Below are positions 1 through 62,628 of a stretch of 64,000 bases of DNA, piece by piece; position 1 is the stretch's first letter; the number at the start of each line of letters is the position of its first letter. The notes beneath the pieces are model-generated. The model had not been told where the DNA came from. It worked only from the letters and a program-made list of their open reading frames with translations, and made no database searches. The position numbers and the translations under genes were made by a program. Location: assembly GCA_947034885.2 (NCBI GenBank), contig OX344751.2, positions 38,531,082-38,595,081 on the forward strand, in the 5' to 3' direction. This stretch comes from Thuidium tamariscinum (taxonomy: Eukaryota; Streptophyta; Bryopsida; Hypnales; Thuidiaceae).

Positions 1-1811
1 TCTAAAAGCATATGGGGGCCATAGCTCCGCCGTCCCTCATGGGACTAGCTTAACTCCATGACCAAGAGAGGAGGGAGGGAAGAGTAGATACAATGTGCAA
101 GCATACTTTCGAAGTCACCTCACAAGTTACCCCTCGGTTCCTTACAAGTCTTTTCCACAACAACTTTCACTTGTTTCACAACACAAAAGGTGGCACAATA
201 TTGATTAGCATAAGTTCTCACAAAACTTGGGGGGGTCTCAAGTCCCCAAGTGCAAGCCACAAGTACCAAGGGTGCAACAACCCCAAAACTATCAAAGGCT
301 CCTTTGGTATAATAAGCCAAAGGAAATCCGGCATAACCCGGGCCCAATAATCCTCCTCTCTTAAATGGTGAGGAGTGAGAAAGAGAGAGAATGAGAGGAG
401 AATGCCGCCCCTTTTATACTCAAAAGGGAGCAACCCCCCTTTAATCTACTAAGAAAATCTAGATGAGGGAATTTTAGAAGGTCCGTACATGTTTACTAAT
501 CCCAAATCTAACTATCCACCTAAAATCTACGCAATTTGAATTGAGTAATTCAAATCTTACCTAACCTTACAAGAACTTGCAAATCCACCTAAATTACCTT
601 CCCCAAAATCTACAAGTTCCCACATGGGAGTGGTTCCCATGTGTTCCCACCTACTTAATTTGAAATTACTTACACCAAGCACTTGGAGCCACCTCCACTA
701 ACTTTTTGAGGTGGTACTTGCTCCCACATGTGCCCGGAGTTCCGCACACGTTCTCTGCACGTTCCCCATGGCCATTGGGGCCCAAACTCTCCAAAAAGGC
801 ATTGGAGAGCCTTAAACCCCATTTTCTCCTCCATGTGATGTCCCCCAAAGGATAACTTTTGGAATTTAGCTCCGAATGGCAAACGGATTGCGCCATTGGG
901 TCCGGAAGGCCATAAGTAGTATAGAGAGAACCCTATATTCCTTAATCTATGCCCTAAATCTCAAAGAATCTTAGTGTAAGCTGGGGTCAAAGTTGGGATA
1001 AATTCCCAACTTTTAGAGTTTGGCAATTTTGGACCCCAACCCTTCACCAAGCTCTTAAGTAGATAGAAGGGGGTAGGAATAGACCCAAAGTAGGCCTCGA
1101 TCCGATGTTGTATGGCCTCGGTACGCCAGTCAACTGCAACTTCCGTCGTTTAAATTGTCAGTTGTGGAGGAATGTTGCCGATTCAAGGTCTTTCAACTAT
1201 CGATTTGTCTTGAAACTTGGGGAAGCGCTCCGTTGGTGTGAGACCGCCTCACCGGATTCTTAGTGGGATTTTACCGCACTTTGGGATATTCTTTCGAATT
1301 CCCACCCAAAGTCCACCGCGGTTGACCATCCGGGAAAATATCCAAACTACTTTGGAAAATTCCCAAACTTTAGAGGGGACCACCCATGGGATCCTCCCAC
1401 ATGGATGCAAACCTGCACCCCCACTGCGTGCTCCTAAAATTAGGAAATCGCCCGGTACCTACATTTCAAGGTTAGTATTCCGCCCATATTCTCTTCGATG
1501 CTATGGGGAGTGGGGGATTCCTCCTAGATTCCCCCATGAGGACTTCCTAACCTAGCTAGGGCTTTTTTAGGCTTCTTATCCTAATCCTGCACATCACTAT
1601 CAGTTTGACGTCTATTTAGCTAAGACAAGACCTATTTTTGATGCAAACTATCCTAAACCCCCCTCTAATGACCAAATGGCATATTGGTATGTGTAATGCC
1701 AATACCAATTTAATGCTCTTATGTGGGTTTTACGAGCCTAATTATGCCTTAGATTGTGTAGGAATTCGAAAAAAGAACCCGTGAGTCCCCGGTGACGAAT
1801 CGAGGGCTCAC
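1..1811 (-). mobile_element. Probable LTR of an LTR retrotransposon, cut by the window edge
   Basis: Read on the minus strand, this block starts with TGTGAGCCCTCG at 1811, the TG expected at an LTR start. About 1.4 kb downstream comes a good plant core promoter (TATA box at 412-418 followed by a pyrimidine-rich stretch), as in a U3/R junction. GC content is higher than in the neighbouring AT-rich DNA. The other end lies outside the window, so the duplication of target DNA, the primer-binding site and any gag-pol are unseen and the lineage cannot be named. If correct the LTR is over 1.8 kb, long for plants. A host promoter region is the alternative. Confidence 0.4.
361..420 (-). promoter_or_regulatory. 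TATA box plus pyrimidine patch (minus strand)
   Basis: The minus strand reads GAGTATAAAAGGGGCGGC (TATA core at 412-418), followed within 15-50 bases by a CT-rich run (complement of 361-399). TATA plus downstream Y-patch is the usual plant core promoter layout. It would drive transcription toward position 1, consistent with the LTR reading of 1-1811. Confidence 0.45.
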
Positions 1812-8802: not shown

Positions 8803-9108
8803 TTGAGGACCAACACAGGTTAGTTTAGATTTCCAAAATTGTCAAGATCAATTATGAAACACAATTTCTAAGAATAATTTAATAGTAAATCTTACAAGAA
8901 AATTACAAAATATGATTCAAAGAATGGTTAAATCAACTAGTTTACAAACCAACACTTTCAATAAAATTTGAAGCCAAAAATGAAAATACTTTTTAAGATC
9001 AAGTATAGAATGAATATATGTGATTTCCACAAAAAATTTCCCTTGAAGTTCAAAATGTTCAATTCTAATTCTAGAAAATTTTGAAAATTTTAATTTTATT
9101 GAATTTAA

Positions 9109-10057
9109 CCCCTAAAGGATCAAACTATATTTTTTGGCAACATAATAATTTTAGGCAACTAATTATGAATGGGAATTTCTAATTTTTTTTCTTTGAAAAT
9201 TTCACACAATATGTGCCCAAAGAATATCTTTAAGGCTAAACAATTTTATAACTTTTAACTACATGGTTCAAAAGTTATTGTATGATCTATAGTTTTCATT
9301 GCTTGGTAGGCAAACTGGAAAGCTCAAAAACTCTTCAAAAATCACTTTTAAAAAAAATTAAAATTTGAAATTAATTTTTTAGATTTATATATATGTGGAG
9401 AGCTTTAAATTATTTCATTTTCATTAATAAGATGAAAGTTATGAAGAGCTTTAGTTTGTGGGTAGTTTGTAGGAAGTTATAGAATGTCCAATCTAAAATA
9501 TACTTTGAAGTCCTTTATTTAATTCAATTTTTAATATTTTTGAGAAAGAATAAAAATATTTAATGAATTTGTTTATTACAACATTACAACCATTGGAATT
9601 GGAATTGGAATTTTTCAATTCAATAAATAAGTTGTTCCCAATTTAGTATTTTGAATCATTCTCTACTTCTTTCTTTTTACTATTTTTTTGTACATGTTGC
9701 ACAATTCCAAATGATTTGAAAATTTTCAAGCATGTAGCCAGATTGAATTGAAGATTGAATCTAAAGAGTTACAACCATTTTGGATACTTTTTTCATACAA
9801 ATGTGGCCTTTTGAAGTTCAGCTGCCCGGATTTTCACATTAGTAAAAAAAGGATTTTTGTGACTTTTAACACTAATATCTTGCAATCTACTTGGCAGAAA
9901 TTTCTAAAAAAAATTCTACATCTTCTCAAACTAGTGCACTAAAAGATCCTATGGTTACATTAATCCAAATCTTTTTTTTTCTAAAATTTGATAATTGCCC
10001 TAGAAATGATAGTTTTGGAGTGGGTTTGGTGAAAATATAGTAAAAAAACTTTAGGGG
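9109..10057 (+). mobile_element. C3: complete family C TTAA element (949 bp)
   Basis: Begins CCCCTAAAGGATC and ends CTTTAGGGG; the outer 9 bp form an exact inverted repeat. TTAA flanks both sides (9105-9108, 10058-10061). The interior follows family C order: a GGCAACAT box, ACTTTTGACT, a copy-to-copy conserved AAGCTT region, a CCGGATTTTC box and a late ATCTTGCAATCTAC box. Only short open frames exist and they differ in frame between copies, so it looks non-autonomous. Confidence 0.85.
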
Positions 10058-10671: not shown

Positions 10672-11359
10672 AAACCATACCTACCCACAAACTAACATTT
10701 CTCATAACTTTCACTTTGTAAGTCCAAATAGAATGATTCAAAGCTTCCCGCATACACAAAATTCTAAAGAACCAATTTCAATTTTTCATTTTTTCAAAAA
10801 GTCGTTTTTAAAGAAGTTTTTTGAGCTACCCAAGCTGCTCAAAAATAAAAGGAAATCAATATCATGCAATAACTTTTGAACTATGGAGTCAAATGTTATG
10901 AAAATTGTTGGGTCTTAAAGCTACTCCTTGGGCATAAGTTGTGTGAAAATTTCAATTAAAAAAATTAAAATCTTCATTTGTGGTGAGCTGCCCAAAATTG
11001 CTATGTTGCCAAAAAACATAGCTTGGTCCTTTAGGGGTCAATCCAAATAGCACAAGTCAAAGCTTCCCATGTCTATATAAATCTAGAGAACTAGTTTTAA
11101 ATTTTTATTCTAAAAAAAGTGATTTTTGAAGAAGTTTTTTAAGCTACCTAGATTGCCCGCCAAACAAAGAAAATCACATATCATGCAATGACTTTTTAAC
11201 AATGCAGTCAAAAGTTATGAAAATTGTTGGGCCTTAAAGCTACTCTTTAGGCACATGTTTTGGAAAAATTTTAAAGAAAGAAAAAAGAAAGACTCCATCT
11301 GTAGTGAGCTGCCTAAAATTGCTATGTTGCCAAAAAAACGTAGTTTGGTCCTTTAGGGG
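10672..11359 (-). mobile_element. C4: family C element, truncated, with its end duplicated in tandem
   Basis: In inverse orientation it carries the GGCAACAT-end of family C twice: unit one closes with TTTAGGGG at 11030-11037 (followed by TCAA) and unit two with TTTAGGGG at 11352-11359 followed by TTAA. Each unit of about 320-360 bp runs from the AAGCTTCCC region to the terminus. The distal part breaks off at 'GTGGGTAGGTATGGTTTT' (inverse), the same point at which copy C5 breaks off. Confidence 0.75.
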
Positions 11360-26385: not shown

Positions 26386-26614
26386 CACTACAAGAAAAAG
26401 GGGTGTTTAAGTGAGTTTTTAAGTGTAGTCCTAGACATCAAATAATAAGTAATGACCTTTTAGGCAATTTTCAGCAAAAAAATTCTTGAAATCCATATAT
26501 TTCTAGTAAATTTTTGTTGAAAATTACCTTAAAGGTCATTAACTCATTACTTATAATTTGTTGTCTAGGACTATACTTAAAAACTTACTTAAAACACCTT
26601 TTTTTCTTGTAGTG
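26386..26614. mobile_element. CACTA-type foldback MITE 1 (229 bp)
   Basis: CACTACAAGAAAAAGGGGTG at the left and its near-inverse CACCTTTTTTTCTTGTAGTG at the right, with the inverted match continuing almost to the centre, so a single strand would fold into one long hairpin. Flanked by the 3-bp duplication AAA (26383-26385, 26615-26617). Non-coding. Confidence 0.92.
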
Positions 26615-26827
26615 AAAGAGTTATGTCTTGTGTTTCTTCCAAACTCCGGCTTGTGGTCTTGCATTGCATACGCTTTACAATTAACTCTATTGTTTATTAA
26701 TGACATAAAAGTCCTTTTTGCATCTTTGAAAAGAGGTTCTTTACAATGAACTAGAATTGACTTTTGTATTTCTTTAACCAATTCCAATCCTTAAATTAAT
26801 TCATTAGAAGATAAAGGAATGTTTTAA

Positions 26828-28744
26828 CCCCTAAACCCATAAACAATGTTTTTGAGATTATAGATTTTTTGGGCAGCTCACTACGGATGGATATTTTATT
26901 TATTTTCTTTGAAATTTTGATACAATGTGTGCCCAAGGAGTAGCTTTAAGGCCCGACAATTTTCATAGCTTTTGACTTCACGGTTAAAAAGTTATGCCGG
27001 GATATGTTGTTTTCTTTACTCGGCGGGCAGCCCGGGCAGATGAAAAAACTTCTTCAAAAAAACTTTTTAAAAAAAAGTGAAATTTCAATTTGGTTCTTTA
27101 GATTTATACAAACATGGGAAGCTTTAAATCAATCCATTCCGATCAATGAGTCAAAAGTTATGAAGATTTTGAGTTTGGAGTAGTTTGCGGCCAGTTACAG
27201 AATCTCTACAGTACAAAAAAAGTTTGAAATTCTTCATTTAACCCCTAAAGGACTGAAGTCCAAATAGGTTCTAAAGCGTCATTCCATTTGAAGAGTCATA
27301 GATCGAAATATCACTTAGTTATTAAGATCTTAACCATACAATCTTTTAGTAAACATGTTGTAGATGATTTGTATCAAATTTGGAGTCATTTGACCGCATA
27401 GATTTAAAGATTATAATATTTTAGTGCTAAAAATGAATGCTGAAATTTCCATAAAACACATTCGGAGGTGAAATTTGATTTCTAAACCTACTCAAATGAA
27501 AAAACTTTATACTATAGAATGATTCAAAATTAGTAAACAAACACATTGGTAAAAAAAATTCATTGAATTGACTCATTGTGGTTACAAATTGGCTTTGAAA
27601 TACCTTGAAAAGAGCAAGAAAAACTGCAAAAAACACATCTATGGTTGAAACTCCTTCTACTAGAATGCTTCTCAGTCACTCATAACTTCTTTGATTGACA
27701 TAAAATTTTAGCCACACAAACTAGACTATTATGCGCAACTTTTCCAACATAAATGATTGAAAATGGACTTTGTATGAAGAAGATACAAGTCGCCGAAGTT
27801 TATTGTTCTCCAAAAAAGGTAGGGATTTGAACTTCGAATTGCTCCCAAAAATTCAGAACAACTTGGATTGACATTAAATTTTTACCACAATAACTAAACT
27901 TCAAGGGGAAGAAAACCCAACAAATTTTATTGAATTTAGACCTTAGATGAAAGAGATACAAGCCCCCAAAGTTGCAGCCCTAAAATGCAGTTTGTGAACT
28001 CAATTAGAACCTGCAAACTTTGATTGGCTGCTAAAAACTCATTATGTTGTGTATTGATCTGAAAATTTTACCACACAAACTAAAAGACAAGGCGCATTTT
28101 TCCCAACAATTTTTATCAAATTTGGACTTTAGTTGCAAAAGTTACAACACTTTGAAGTTACAGCATTTCAAGAGGGTATGAAAAACGTCCGCTGTGACGT
28201 TAAGGGGTTAATTCAATTTTTAATATTTTTGGAAAAAAAATAAAAACAAAAGGTGTAGATTGTTTATTACAACATTTTAACCATTGGGATTGAAAATTTT
28301 CAATTCCATGAATAAAATGTTCACAATTTAGTATTTTGGCTCATTTTTTACTTCTTTCTACTTACTTATTTTTTCCTATATGTTGTACAATTCCAAATGG
28401 TTTGAAATTTTTTGAGAATGTAGCCAACTTGCATTGAAGTATGAATTCAAAGAGTAACCAGCATTTTGAATTTTTTTTCACACAAATGTGACCTTGTGAA
28501 GTGCAGCTGCCCGGATTTTCGCAGGGATAAAAAAACAGTTTTTGTCAATTCAAATGCTTATATCTTGCAATCTACATGGTGGAAATTTCTGAATTTCTTT
28601 TTACATGTTTACAAACCACCTTACTACAAGATCCTATGGTTATAAGAGTCAAAAATGTGTTTTTAAAAAAAAAATTGCTCTTGTATTAGAAATGGCAATT
28701 TTGGAGCATTTTTTTGGTTGAAAACGCCGTTAGGGGTTTAGGGG
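26828..28744 (+). mobile_element. C1: family C TTAA element carrying D1
   Basis: Starts CCCCTAAACCC after TTAA (26824-26827) and ends TTTAGGGG before TTAA (28745-28748), which is also the left junction of B2. Without D1 it is about 950 bp and very similar to C2 in inverse orientation. Boxes include GGGCAGCTCACTAC, GGCCCGACAATTTTCATAG, ACTCGGCGGGCAGCCCGGGC and CCGGATTTTCGC. Confidence 0.9.
27242..28207 (+). mobile_element. D1: family D TTAA element inserted in C1 (966 bp)
   Basis: CCCCTAAAGGACTGAAG at the left and GACGTTAAGGGG at the right, with TTAA on both sides (27238-27241, 28208-28211). The host copy reads CTTCATTTAA | D1 | TTAATTCAATTTTT, while C2 has the uninterrupted CTTCATTTAATTCAA (inverse strand near 29910-29925), so one TTAA was duplicated. 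The interior holds three related segments of about 140 bp. Confidence 0.93.
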
Positions 28745-28748
28745 TTAA

Positions 28749-30499
28749 CCCCTAATTGTGTGGGCAACCATATATGGTTGCGCAAAAAATTTGAACTCAG
28801 ATCTGAATGGGTAGTTAAATTCCTTTGACTATTCTGAAATTTTTTTTCGGGCAATTTTTAGTATTAACTATTGAAAACTTTCATTTTTCACAAAAAAAAG
28901 TAAATACTTGATTATTTAGGGGTCTTTAAAGGCATACATGAAACATTAGTGGAAAGTAAAAGCTTTCCAATTCTATTTCATTTTCTGCTTTAGTGCACAA
29001 CTTGCCAATTTCACTTGATTTGAGATCTAAGAAATTGTACTTATCCAAATGCTTTGAAAATGGTCCCATTAGAAAGAGTAAAGTATTTTCATGATTTTTC
29101 ACCATTAATAATTTCAGCATGCAAGTGTTGATTTGAAGATTTTTGCAATTTTTAGTTATAGAAAAAAAATTGTATAACTACTATTGCAAGGTGGATTGTG
29201 TAATGAATTTCATAGCTTTTCAAGTGAAATTAATTTTTTTGAAAGTACATATTAGAATACTAAAAATATTTTTATTTGTTCATGTCACTATTAATTCAAA
29301 AAAAAATTAATATACAAATTTCTAAAACATTGTGGAGAGAGGTAGCATACTAAAAATAGAAAATACACATTTCTCTTGCTATAACCCTTACAGGTTTTTG
29401 ACTATGTTTTCACCAAAAATGCTCCAAAACTGCCATTTCTAATACAAGTGCAATTTTTTTTTAAAACACATTTTTGACTCATGTAACCATAGGATCTTGT
29501 AGTAAGGTGGTTTGTAAACATGTAAAAAAAATTCAGAAATTTCCACCATGTAGATTGCAAGATATATAAGCATTTGAATTGACAAAAATTGTTTTTTTAT
29601 CCCTGCAAAAATCCGGGCAGCTGCACTTCACAAGGTCACATTTGTGTGAAAAAAAATTCAAAATGCTGGTTACTCTTTGAATTCATACTTCAATGCAAGT
29701 TGGCTACATTCTCAAAAAATTTCAAACCATTTGGAATTGTACAACATATAGGAAAAAATAAGTAAGTAGAAAGAAGTAACAAATGAGCCAAAATACTAAA
29801 TTGTGAACATTTTATTCATGGAATTGAAAATTTTCAATCCCAATGGTTAAAATGTTGTAATAAACAATCTACACCTTTTGTTTTTATTTTTTTTCCAAAA
29901 ATATGAAAAATTGAATTAAATGAAGAATTTAAAACTTTTTTTGTACTGTAGAGATTCTGTAATTGGCCGCAAACTATTCCAAACTCAAAATCTTCATAAC
30001 TTTTGACTCATTGATCGGAATGGATTGATTTAAAGCTTCCCATGTCTGTATAAATCTAAAGAACCAATTTGAAATTTCACTTTTAAAAAAAATGTTTTTT
30101 TGAAGAAGTTTTTTCAGCTGCCCAGTCTGCCTGCCGAGTAAAGAAAACAACATATCCCGCCATAACTTTTTTACCGTGAAGTCAAAAGCTATGAAAATTG
30201 TTGGGCCTTAAAGCTACTCCTTGGGCACACATTGTATCAAAATTTCAAAGAAAAAAAAAATCCATCGGTAGTGAGCTGCCCAAAATATTTATGATATCAA
30301 AAAATGCTATTCATGGCTTTAGGGGGTAATCTGACAACTCCTTTTCAATTTTGCACTCAATTCTCTAAAAGACTAATATGCAAGCTCTTAAAACATCTAT
30401 GCGGTTGGATCTTGAAAAAAGAAAAATTGGAGATTACTAGAAGCCAATGCTCTTTTTTCATAAGAAAAACACACTTGTCAAGGCTTAGGTACTTAGGGG
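28749..30499 (+). mobile_element. B2: family B TTAA element carrying C2
   Basis: Starts CCCCTAATTGTGTGGG after the TTAA shared with C1 and ends ACTTAGGGG before TTAA (30500-30503). Its two halves align with B1 on either side of C2. Without C2 it is about 800 bp. Confidence 0.88.
29385..30327 (-). mobile_element. C2: family C TTAA element inserted in B2 (about 943 bp)
   Basis: In inverse orientation, CCCTTACAGG...TTTAGGGGG. B1 reads TTATAATCTTACAACTCC at the empty site; B2 reads TATAA | C2 | TAATCTGACAAC. The duplicated bases are TAA, or ATAA/GTAA if counted as four, so the target was not a perfect TTAA. Near-identical to the C1 halves. Confidence 0.88.
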
Positions 30500-30683
30500 T
30501 TAAGTTTGGTCCTAGTAGTATTGTCTTTTAAGTGATGACCTACAAAGAGTCTTTTAATTAAAATTAGATCAAGAAATACATGTCTTTTTAGTAAAATATT
30601 AGTTAAAAGACTTAGTACAGATCATTATTCAAAAGACTATACTACTAACCATACTTAAAACAACCCTTTCTCTTGTAGTGATT

Positions 30684-31439
30684 AGTAAGTCCCTCTAAGG
30701 CATTTAGCAAAGCACAATACCTTTTCCATCATGTGGAAAACCATTGCATGGTAATACAATGTTATAAAAGAAGAAGGATCTATATGACAATTTAGAATAA
30801 TTATAAAACTTCTAAGAATTGTTTTCCATGTTTACTAGGAAGAAAAATGTAGATGAAGAATTATTTGTAGTAGTTTTGTATACAACTAAATCAACCAATC
30901 ACAATTTGCATTTCATACCAAATAGTTAATTAAAGTTGGGAAAACAAGTTTGTCATATGCTTAAACCCATGAGTTTTGTGAAAAAGTCAGTTGAATTAAA
31001 AAAGTTGAAATAAAAGTGGGTATGAAACTTAGAAACATTCTTTTACATTTGGTACTTTATCTATATTCAAAAAATTGGAAATATAATTTTTGTAAAATTG
31101 TAAAATTGTAAAATATAGTTTTGGAGTTATTTCCACTTGATTCCTTGGTTGATTCTAATAGCTAGGTACAATACATCATAAAGGTGAAAATAGCAAGTTC
31201 TATCCTTAATAGTTCTTTTTTGGAGCAACACTATGTGGTATAGATTTATATTCGATAGCCAATAAAATTTTTGTCATCATCATCTATAAAAATATTTTTT
31301 AAATTCATTTTCAATTCAAACATATGAATTCATTCACTTTATACTTTGCATTTGAACTTTGAAACAAAAGGTTACCTTCTATATTTAAATAATTGTGACT
31401 CTCATACATTCGAGCCTCATCTATTATTATTACATAATT
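30684..31439. other. Unresolved AT-rich spacer with a short dispersed repeat
   Basis: About 67 bp at 30965-31031 (AACCCATGAGTTTTGTGAA...) recur with few changes at 52614-52681. No termini visible, so the element type is unknown. Confidence 0.45.
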
Positions 31440-40512: not shown

Positions 40513-41736
40513 TAAGGTAGGAGGTCCTTAAATGAAACATCTAAGGGCTAGAACTAAAATTTGGGAAGGTGAAACATCTTAACCCTTTAGTGACCAATCG
40601 ACTACTTTTTTGTTGATTTTTGCACTCTTGGTCTAATACTGTTTAAAATACATTTGACCACAAAAATCTCAAAGAGTAACGCAATTAGAGTGTCCTCATG
40701 CGCTTTAAACAAAACCAATTTTAAGAGAATTGGAGCATTAATGCATTGGCTATGAGGTTTGCAAACGCAAATGGCTTGAACCCTCAAATGGGAAGTGTTC
40801 AACAAAAAATACAAAAGAATATCAACCAATTTGTGATATTTTTTTGTATCTTGATGTCTTGACAAGGCATAAATGTTGCTTTGTAATCTCATGAATGCCC
40901 AAAGTAAACTTATGCATTGAAATTTATGTAGTGCAAATTCTAAAGGGTCATTTGAGTCATCGATTTTTGAGGATTAAGAGAAACAACTCAAATTCCAACA
41001 AGGCTCTAAAAGCAAATATGATTTAGAGTTACATTTTTCTTTATTCAATATACCAAATCTGCACATTTTAGAAGTGTATTGCTTTTGATGACTACAAATG
41101 ACCATTTTTTGTGAACTTCAAAAATTTGTAACTAATTTCAAAAAGCTTCAAAAAATATGAAACAACTTGGATTAGATGCCTATTCTACTTGCCTCTCGAG
41201 AAAAATTTACTAAAAAATATTTAAAGATGTTCTACCTCCCCAGAATTCAGTTCTAGCCCTTAAAAGATTGATTTATGAACCTTCTAACTTATTTGTGGCA
41301 ATTTGTACCATTGGATGAGTTTGATTTTTTGTTAGGTTGAAAAATCTCCCTTATGGAAATACTTTATACGGTTTGATATAAGATTACATCCTTAGAATGG
41401 CTACAAAATTCACTTTCTTGAAGAACTACACCCGCCCCCCAAATCAACCATGGTCACTAAAGGGTTAAAATATTCCTCCATAAATTTTCATTAAAAGACA
41501 AGTGGAATTGACATTTAATCCAAGTTGTTTCATATTTTTTGGAGCTTAAAGCTTGGTAGAATTAGTTGTAAAAATTTGAAGTTGAAGTAGCATAGGGCAC
41601 TAAAATGGAGCACTTCCTAAAATGTACACAATTTTTACATTATTGAGGGCTATGAAAAAGCAACATGTACAAACAAGATACATCTAAGGAGGTGCTCTAT
41701 TTTAGAGCCCGCTCCATCTTATAACCTCCTACCTTA
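40513..41736 (+). mobile_element. F2: family F element split by element G
   Basis: TAAGGTAGGAGGTCC at the left, inverse CTCCTACCTTA at the right. Without G it is about 340 bp and aligns with F1. F1 reads ACTTCTTAAATATTTTTCAG at the empty site; F2 reads CATCTTAA | G | TTAAAATATTCC. Confidence 0.85.
40583..41464 (+). mobile_element. G: TTAA element (882 bp) with perfect 14-bp ends
   Basis: CCCTTTAGTGACCA and TGGTCACTAAAGGG are exact inverted repeats, flanked by TTAA (40579-40582, 41465-41468). The interior part at about 41085-41308 is itself a diverged inverse copy of family F (ATATGAAACAACTTGGATTAG, CCTCCCCAGAATTCAG). So G either captured F sequence or received an F insertion before entering F2. 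Confidence 0.9.
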
Positions 41737-61708: not shown

Positions 61709-62628
61709 CCCCTAAAGGACCAAGGCCTTTTTTCTGTCAAAAAACTCTCAAAACTACCATTTCTGTTGCATTCATCCAAGAAAACAAATTTTTTTTTTTA
61801 AGAATCTAACCGTAGGATCTTGTACTTAACTTGATTGAGATCAAGTGGTAAGAACTTCATGAACTTTGACCGTATAGATTGGAAGATATGAGCATTCAAA
61901 GTTGGAAATATAAGTTTTTTTGAACTGTGGTTTGCAATTTCAGATGACTTTGACTGGAATTTGTATTAAAAAATTGCACTACAGACTTTGAATTTATAAT
62001 TTTTTGTGTTTAGAAATTGAGTTGAGAGTCTAGGAAAAAAATTTCATACAAAAAACACTTGATTTTCATTCTTTAAGAAATTGTTAAGTAGGTGTAGGTC
62101 CAAGATTGAAAGAAAAACTAAATGGTTAATAACTCTAAGATGGGATTGAAATACAATAATCCCAATGGTGAGATTGTTCTAGAAAGTAAACATAACCTTG
62201 TCCAACAATTTTTTTTGAAAAATTGTGAAAATTGCATTCAAAAATGAATCCTATAAGTTATTTTTTCAAGAAATTGTTTAGATTGCCCAAAAAACAAGAT
62301 TGTCCATAACTTTCTCATTATAAGTCCAAATAGAGTGAATCAAAGCTTCACATGTAGGAAAAAATATATTATTTTAGAAAAAAATAAATTTTAATTAAAT
62401 TTTGACTTTTTGCAAAAAATAATTTTTGCCCGCCAAATGAAAATTTGGGCTTTTTGTGGTATAACTTTTGCTCCCAGTCACCAATTGAAATAAAAATTAC
62501 ATTCCCATGAAGCTAATCATTTTTCCTATCTTATGAGAAAGTTTCAAAAAGATTCATTAAAAATTGAGGTCTACAGAACTTGTCCGAACTCCAAATTGTC
62601 CCCCGAGGGGACAATGGTCCTTTAAGGG
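61709..62628 (+). mobile_element. A1: family A TTAA element (920 bp)
   Basis: CCCCTAAAGGACCA and TGGTCCTTTAAGGG (inverted repeat, 13 of 14), with TTAA on both sides (61705-61708, 62629-62632). Same internal order as A2. The right TTAA is also the left junction of E4. Confidence 0.9.

Follow-up and report, generated by a model that had tools for sequence, protein, structure and literature searches.

The element D1 and its neighbours in the analysed DNA of Thuidium tamariscinum (64,000 nucleotides, referred to here as the window) are almost certainly non-autonomous DNA transposons of the piggyBac superfamily, and the same genome encodes transposases of that superfamily. The junctions of D1 with the surrounding element C1 were read as ...AATTCTTCAT-TTAA-[CCCCTAAAGGACTG...GACGTTAAGGGG]-TTAA-TTCAATTTTT (27238-28211). 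The element C2, which lies about 2 kb away on the opposite strand and is without D1, reads CTTCATTTAATTCAATTTTTC and contains a single TTAA. With D1 and one TTAA removed, the C1 region matched C2 at 94% over 936 aligned columns. The exact empty-site 20-mer occurred 991 times in the 363-Mb genome, and its reversed control did not occur. The junction reading and the alignment confirm the original prediction that D1 was inserted into C1 with duplication of one TTAA, and that C2 is uninterrupted. The features of the window and the delimited transposase elements are listed in Table 1. Within D1, an internal unit is present in three degenerate copies that lie 173 and 186 bp apart (27663-28159).

Table 1. 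Location and properties of the TTAA elements of the window, of five transposase elements found elsewhere in the genome, and of the N-terminal segment of one transposase. Window positions are numbered from the first nucleotide of the window.
Feature	Position	Length	Strand	Remarks
D1, non-autonomous TTAA element	27242..28207	966 bp	+	ends CCCCTAAAGGACTG / rc CCCCTTAACGTCAC
TTAA target-site duplication, left side of D1	27238..27241		.	direct reading; site without insert in C2 and at 991 exact genome places
TTAA target-site duplication, right side of D1	28208..28211		.	direct reading and fetched D1 copies
C1, TTAA element split by D1	26828..28744	947 bp	+	TTAA at 26824-26827 and 28745-28748
C2, C1 relative without D1	29385..30325		-	empty site near 29916; flanks ATAA/GTAA; nested in B2; ends by eye
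B2, TTAA element split by C2	28749..30499		+	TTAA both sides; 10/16 terminal bases alike
B1, B2 relative without C2	22824..23625	802 bp	+	TTAA both sides; ends 14/16 alike
A-type element from TTAA 9105	9109..10057		+	possible alternative right end, GGGG at 11359 (terminal match 15/16 vs 10/16)
TTAA element	40583..41464	882 bp	+	ends CCCTTTAGTGACCA, 14/16 alike
TTAA element	61709..62628	920 bp	+	ends CCCCTAAAGGACCA / CCCTTAAAGGACCA, 13/16 alike
L030, transposase element		5,088 bp		one open frame, 1,023 codons
L036, transposase element		4,888 bp		one open frame, 969 codons
L013, transposase element		4,946 bp		longest frame 628 codons
L011, transposase element		5,038 bp		longest frame 693 codons
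L031, transposase element		5,938 bp		longest frame 527 codons
N-terminal segment in L030 (with L075)	residues about 171-248			in the 1023-codon frame

A genome search with D1, in which the best 40 of 3369 first-look candidates were scored, yielded at least 40 matches that run from position 1 of D1 to 965 or 966 and are 96-100% identical to it, one of them being the window copy; two partial matches at 76% were also returned. The 17-base left end of D1 has an exact genome count of 191, and TTAA stands directly before 184 of these occurrences. This count is less biased than a tally of 30 fetched full-length copies, because those 30 were the best-scoring copies and hence a non-random sample. In the tally, the left 4-mer was TTAA in 29/30 copies and the right 4-mer in 27/30 (25 by the aligned end and two more in copies ending one base shorter). 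The three other copies had right flanks of TTCC, TAAA and CTAA, and the CTAA copy carried CTAA on its left as well. All 30 copies had CC...GG termini, and the 20 bases beyond the flanking 4-mer were all different among them on each side. Tabulated genome-wide, the flanking 4-mers were thus overwhelmingly TTAA, the outcome opposite to the lack of enrichment that would have spoken against the original prediction. Divergence among the 30 copies averaged 2.5% pairwise and 1.3% from the column majority, and the sampled part of the D1 family is therefore fairly young. Eight fetched copies of C gave a similar picture, with TTAA on the right in seven and TTGA in the eighth, TTAA on the left in six (the alignments of the other two stop before the end), and right termini of GGGG or GAGG in 8/8.

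One check proposed with the original prediction was a search for longer elements that have such ends and encode a transposase. At least 116 matches to the PF13843 profile were found in the genome (659 first-look candidates, 116 scored), all over the cut-off and with a best E of 5.7e-80, and there were none in 14 control genomes. Compared as DNA, the best 30 transposase loci formed 14 groups. Five transposase elements, one each from five groups, were delimited; all five had CCC...GGG ends and were bordered on either side by TTAA. The copies of L013, L011 and L031 look decayed or intron-bearing, judging from their longest frames. PF13843 was the sole Pfam family in L036 and in 991 codons of L030 taken from one locus, and the match in the Pfam scan of the transposase had an E of 5.5e-79. 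Two matches of equal PF13843 score, L014 and L015, have opposite orientations and are separated by about 6 kb (C8 at 23.934 and 23.941 Mb). In viral contigs, two stretches fitted a search pattern, and neither encoded a relative.

The L030 protein matched the PDB sequences of piggyBat (3e-27) and of insect piggyBac 6x67 (9.6e-23) with the catalytic aspartates aligned, and a DDD triad (D644, D749, D865) was invariant in 10/10 aligned transposases; the catalytic residues given for insect piggyBac are D268, D346 and D447 (PMC7351741). The predicted structure of the transposase had a mean pLDDT of only 51, with 531/991 residues under 50, and its best Foldseek match was insect piggyBac 6x67 (E 5.6e-20). 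In the last 30 residues of ten transposases, two cysteines were invariant and three cysteines and one histidine nearly invariant. This C-terminal stretch had no Pfam match, and its Cys/His residues may correspond to the cysteine-rich domain (CRD) of piggyBac. The profile match, the triad, the TTAA duplication and the CCC...GGG ends support the piggyBac-like reading put forward in the original prediction, and the longer elements with such ends that were delimited encode PF13843 rather than an unrelated transposase.

In the window itself, D1 included, no transposase remnant was detected at E 1e-3 by tblastn with frames from the 30 transposase loci. A Pfam scan of 10 of the 17 window open frames of at least 100 codons gave no family over the cut-off, and the weak match below the cut-off in those ten frames was DUF5920 (E 0.042). 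Under the proposed mechanism, the DDD transposase of a resident autonomous piggyBac would recognise the CCC...GGG ends, excise the element and join it into a TTAA, which would be duplicated in the process. D1, C and B would most likely have been mobilised in trans, because their ends are similar, the duplication is the same in most cases, and no gene was found in them. From the sequences, we infer that a piggyBac transposase was the mover of D1 itself. The chemistry, by analogy with insect piggyBac, would proceed through a hairpin and seamless excision.

D1 and the transposase elements share the same duplication and the same terminal bases. Likeness beyond the first three bases was assessed by aligning each window end with the best of nine autonomous ends, and likewise in 500 shuffles; the resulting ranks are per-end values over twelve ends, uncorrected for the number of tests. 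For the right end of D1, the alignment with the left end of L030 exceeded 499/500 shuffles. Three ends (the right end of C1, the right end of B1 and the left end of the 61705 element) aligned with the right end of L031 and in each case exceeded 500/500. Another five window ends exceeded between 477 and 490 of the 500 shuffles, only moderately above chance, and 3/12 were at chance level: the two ends of the A-type element and, in the 61705 element, the right one. Among the five delimited transposase elements, none had the exact end pair of D1. A short palindrome was noticed, by eye only, just inside several autonomous left ends and perhaps also at the right end of D1.

Duplication of TTAA is also a property of Kolobok, another superfamily, to which the elements might be assigned on that ground (PMC9587614). 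The Kolobok termini given in the same source are 5'-RR and YY-3', however, whereas CC...GG was found in the 30 D1 copies and the five transposase elements, and the resident transposases match PF13843. Kolobok was rejected on account of these termini, and we give it next to no chance of being correct. Sola3 elements use TTAA too, as the original prediction had also stated, and D1 and its kin could have this target in common with piggyBac while being Sola3-like; the D1-type CCC...GGG ends coincide, however, with the ends of the resident piggyBac elements, and a Sola3-like nature appears very improbable.

It was also considered that the TTAA flanks belong to the repeat and were spread with it by segmental duplication or gene conversion, not by transposition. 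C is abundant, as the 991 exact empty-site places attest, and recombination between copies is possible. Yet the flanks beyond the 4-mer differ in 30/30 D1 copies and in 11/11 autonomous right flanks, and where D1 is absent from C, just one TTAA stands at the site. This explanation was rejected because the flanks differ between copies, and its probability is judged to be negligible. Transposition by a piggyBac-superfamily transposase is thus the reading adopted here for D1 and its neighbours.

The window as a whole is rich in inward-facing ends of this type. Relative to a first-order Markov expectation, the inward-facing 8-mers TTAACCCC (9 vs 1.23 expected) and GGGGTTAA (11 vs 1.16) were in about seven-fold and about nine-fold excess, whereas the outward-facing CCCCTTAA (0 vs 1.37) and TTAAGGGG (2 vs 1.27) were without enrichment. 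Exact TTAACCC and GGGTTAA ends standing 150-2600 bp apart were then paired. Nine left ends obtained a partner, and seven were kept: 9105, 22820 (B1), 26824 (C1), 27238 (D1), 28745 (B2), 40579 and 61705. Outward-facing ends, paired as a control, gave one pair. The left ends 48764 and 49065 were discarded with 8/16 and 4/16 terminal bases alike, by a cut that is soft, D1 and B2 themselves being only 10/16 alike. The original prediction lists eight TTAA copies, D1 among them; its labels C3, C8 and G could not be mapped onto the seven paired elements, and the exact count was not reproduced. Within B2, C2 stands between ATAA and GTAA, and B1 carries ATAA at the empty site; the insertion of C2 may have used a non-TTAA site, or the site may have decayed since. 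A further short element of the window (26386-26614), presumably CACTA-like, has inverted ends CACTACAAGAAAAA with arms 91% complementary, and a related end is found at 30658-30685.

The L030 family comprises 11 copies, and its next relative is just 70% alike. Over the 3,980 bp compared, 9/11 copies, counting the reference copy, had the reference sequence without any change, and 2/11 had one substitution each. The 1,023-codon frame was without a stop in 11/11. The right flanks of the 11 copies were all different and all began with TTAA; on the left, only the flank of L030 was read, and it was likewise TTAA. The 21-base left end of L030 was present at 11/11 copies, at the same distance by coordinates, and at two further places in the genome, one of which is L011. 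As read from these sequences, the L030 family is the product of a very recent burst, and its members probably still move at the present day. In L022, an L030-type copy, the right TTAA (from 3981 in transposase orientation) is common to the start of the next element, and this adjoining element resembles those at 9105 and 42952 of the window.

One clade of the transposases carries, ahead of the core, an additional conserved segment about 60 residues long. It was found in 7/14 groups (9/19 loci scanned: L030, L009, L010, L011, L013, L017, L019, L034 and L036), and in some of the groups that appear to be without it the sequence examined may not extend far enough upstream. In L030, L036 and L010, the segment and the whole core occupy one open frame. 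In L034, L017 and L009, the segment is in frame with the start of the core and a stop falls inside the core, while segment and core are separated by a stop in L013 and L019 and by a frameshift in L011. Second codon positions were more alike than third positions in 21/21 segment pairs, which points to selection on the protein. Mapped on a tree of 18 cores, some of them near-copies, the presence of the segment needs one change (99/99 support), so that one capture or one loss suffices. A search with the L030 segment gave 45 matches, which were compared with 43 typed transposase places. Of the matches, 38 had such a place downstream on their own strand at a distance of at most 3.5 kb, and 7 did not. 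The coding sequences therefore indicate a real segment that is under selection.

Pfam contained no family over the cut-off for the segment. The best match to a Tudor profile, BAHCC1-like_Tudor, was obtained with 1/7 sequences at E 0.032 (14.6 bits vs a cut-off of 28), and a profile of seven segments matched no Tudor chain in the PDB. The segment was modelled as a small barrel-like fold of four strands (of at least 3 residues), with a pLDDT of about 90 in blocks 41-70 and, for the whole model, a mean pLDDT of 71.7 and a pTM of 0.52. Its Foldseek neighbours were Tudor domains (LBR, ERCC6-L2, PHF19), plant SAWADEE, SH3 and unrelated barrels, with best E values of 0.034 and 0.065 and none under 0.001. 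By the predicted fold, the segment is likely to be SH3-like and may plausibly be Tudor-like; a chromatin-reading role can only be hypothesised. For insect piggyBac, a disordered N-terminal region has been described, and the isoelectric point predicted for its residues 1-117 is 4.7 (PMC7351741). We regard it as possible, although rather doubtful, that this piggyBac clade captured an N-terminal histone-reading Tudor-like domain that would steer integration or escape from silencing via chromatin marks, and that the clade is still active. Continued activity is suggested by one member, whose 11 copies are practically identical.

The host was taken in the original prediction to be a plant, and this is borne out by 49 matches to chlorophyll a/b-binding protein in the genome, which mark it as that of a photosynthetic eukaryote in the green lineage; among the 14 control genomes, the cyanobacterium alone matched. 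The top-scoring single-domain solved chains for the LHCII protein were 8htu and 7xqp, both of which we take to be from the moss Physcomitrium patens. MIR1023, a moss-specific microRNA family, was matched at 4.2e-13, below the gathering score (71.7 vs 90 bits). These matches point to a moss as the probable host.

piggyBac has been studied mostly in animals and is best known from insects. The elements described here resemble the members of the superfamily represented by insect piggyBac (6x67) and piggyBat (9c0f) in the TTAA duplication, the CCC...GGG ends, the PF13843 DDD transposase and the core fold. They differ from insect piggyBac and piggyBat in their plant host, in the 4.9-5.9 kb of the five delimited elements, in the about 475-530 codons that precede PF13843 in the 1023- and 969-codon frames and include the barrel-like segment, and in the abundance of non-autonomous relatives of 0.8-1 kb. 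Animal piggyBac-derived MITEs are gene-less, with TTAA duplication and short terminal similarity. D1 agrees with them in all three respects, whereas it is set apart by its 966 bp with degenerate internal repeats and by its plant host. A Tudor-type domain in a mobile element has a parallel in Gypsy-10_Ec32, an Ectocarpus retrotransposon with a C-terminal Tudor domain that was, to its authors' knowledge, the first reported Tudor-bearing mobile element in 2025 (PMC12477816). The present elements are, in contrast, DNA transposons that have the segment at the N-terminus, and the segment is Tudor-like by structure prediction only.

That plants contain piggyBac was already known: a 2015 survey recorded PiggyBac in all groups studied, land plants included (PMC4438587), and a fern repeat table holds 1,230 PiggyBac entries (PMC6890710). 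piggyBac is also said to have been isolated from plants (PMC10813416), is named among plant superfamilies (PMC10794571), and in its insect form has served as a tool in plants (PMC4309413). A Physcomitrium transposon paper is without mention of piggyBac or TTAA (PMC7466625). A Niphotrichum moss paper was set aside as a piggyBac source, its sole match being the word "piggybacking". Among the matches listed in the open-licence PMC literature, judged by titles and the beginnings of abstracts, there was no characterisation of a native plant piggyBac.

Taken together, the at least 116 transposase matches, the 3369 first-look D1 candidates and the 11 near-identical copies point to a native and probably working TTAA-targeting system in a plant. 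If the N-terminal segment does read chromatin, its clade would be a case of DNA transposons equipped with a module for targeting.
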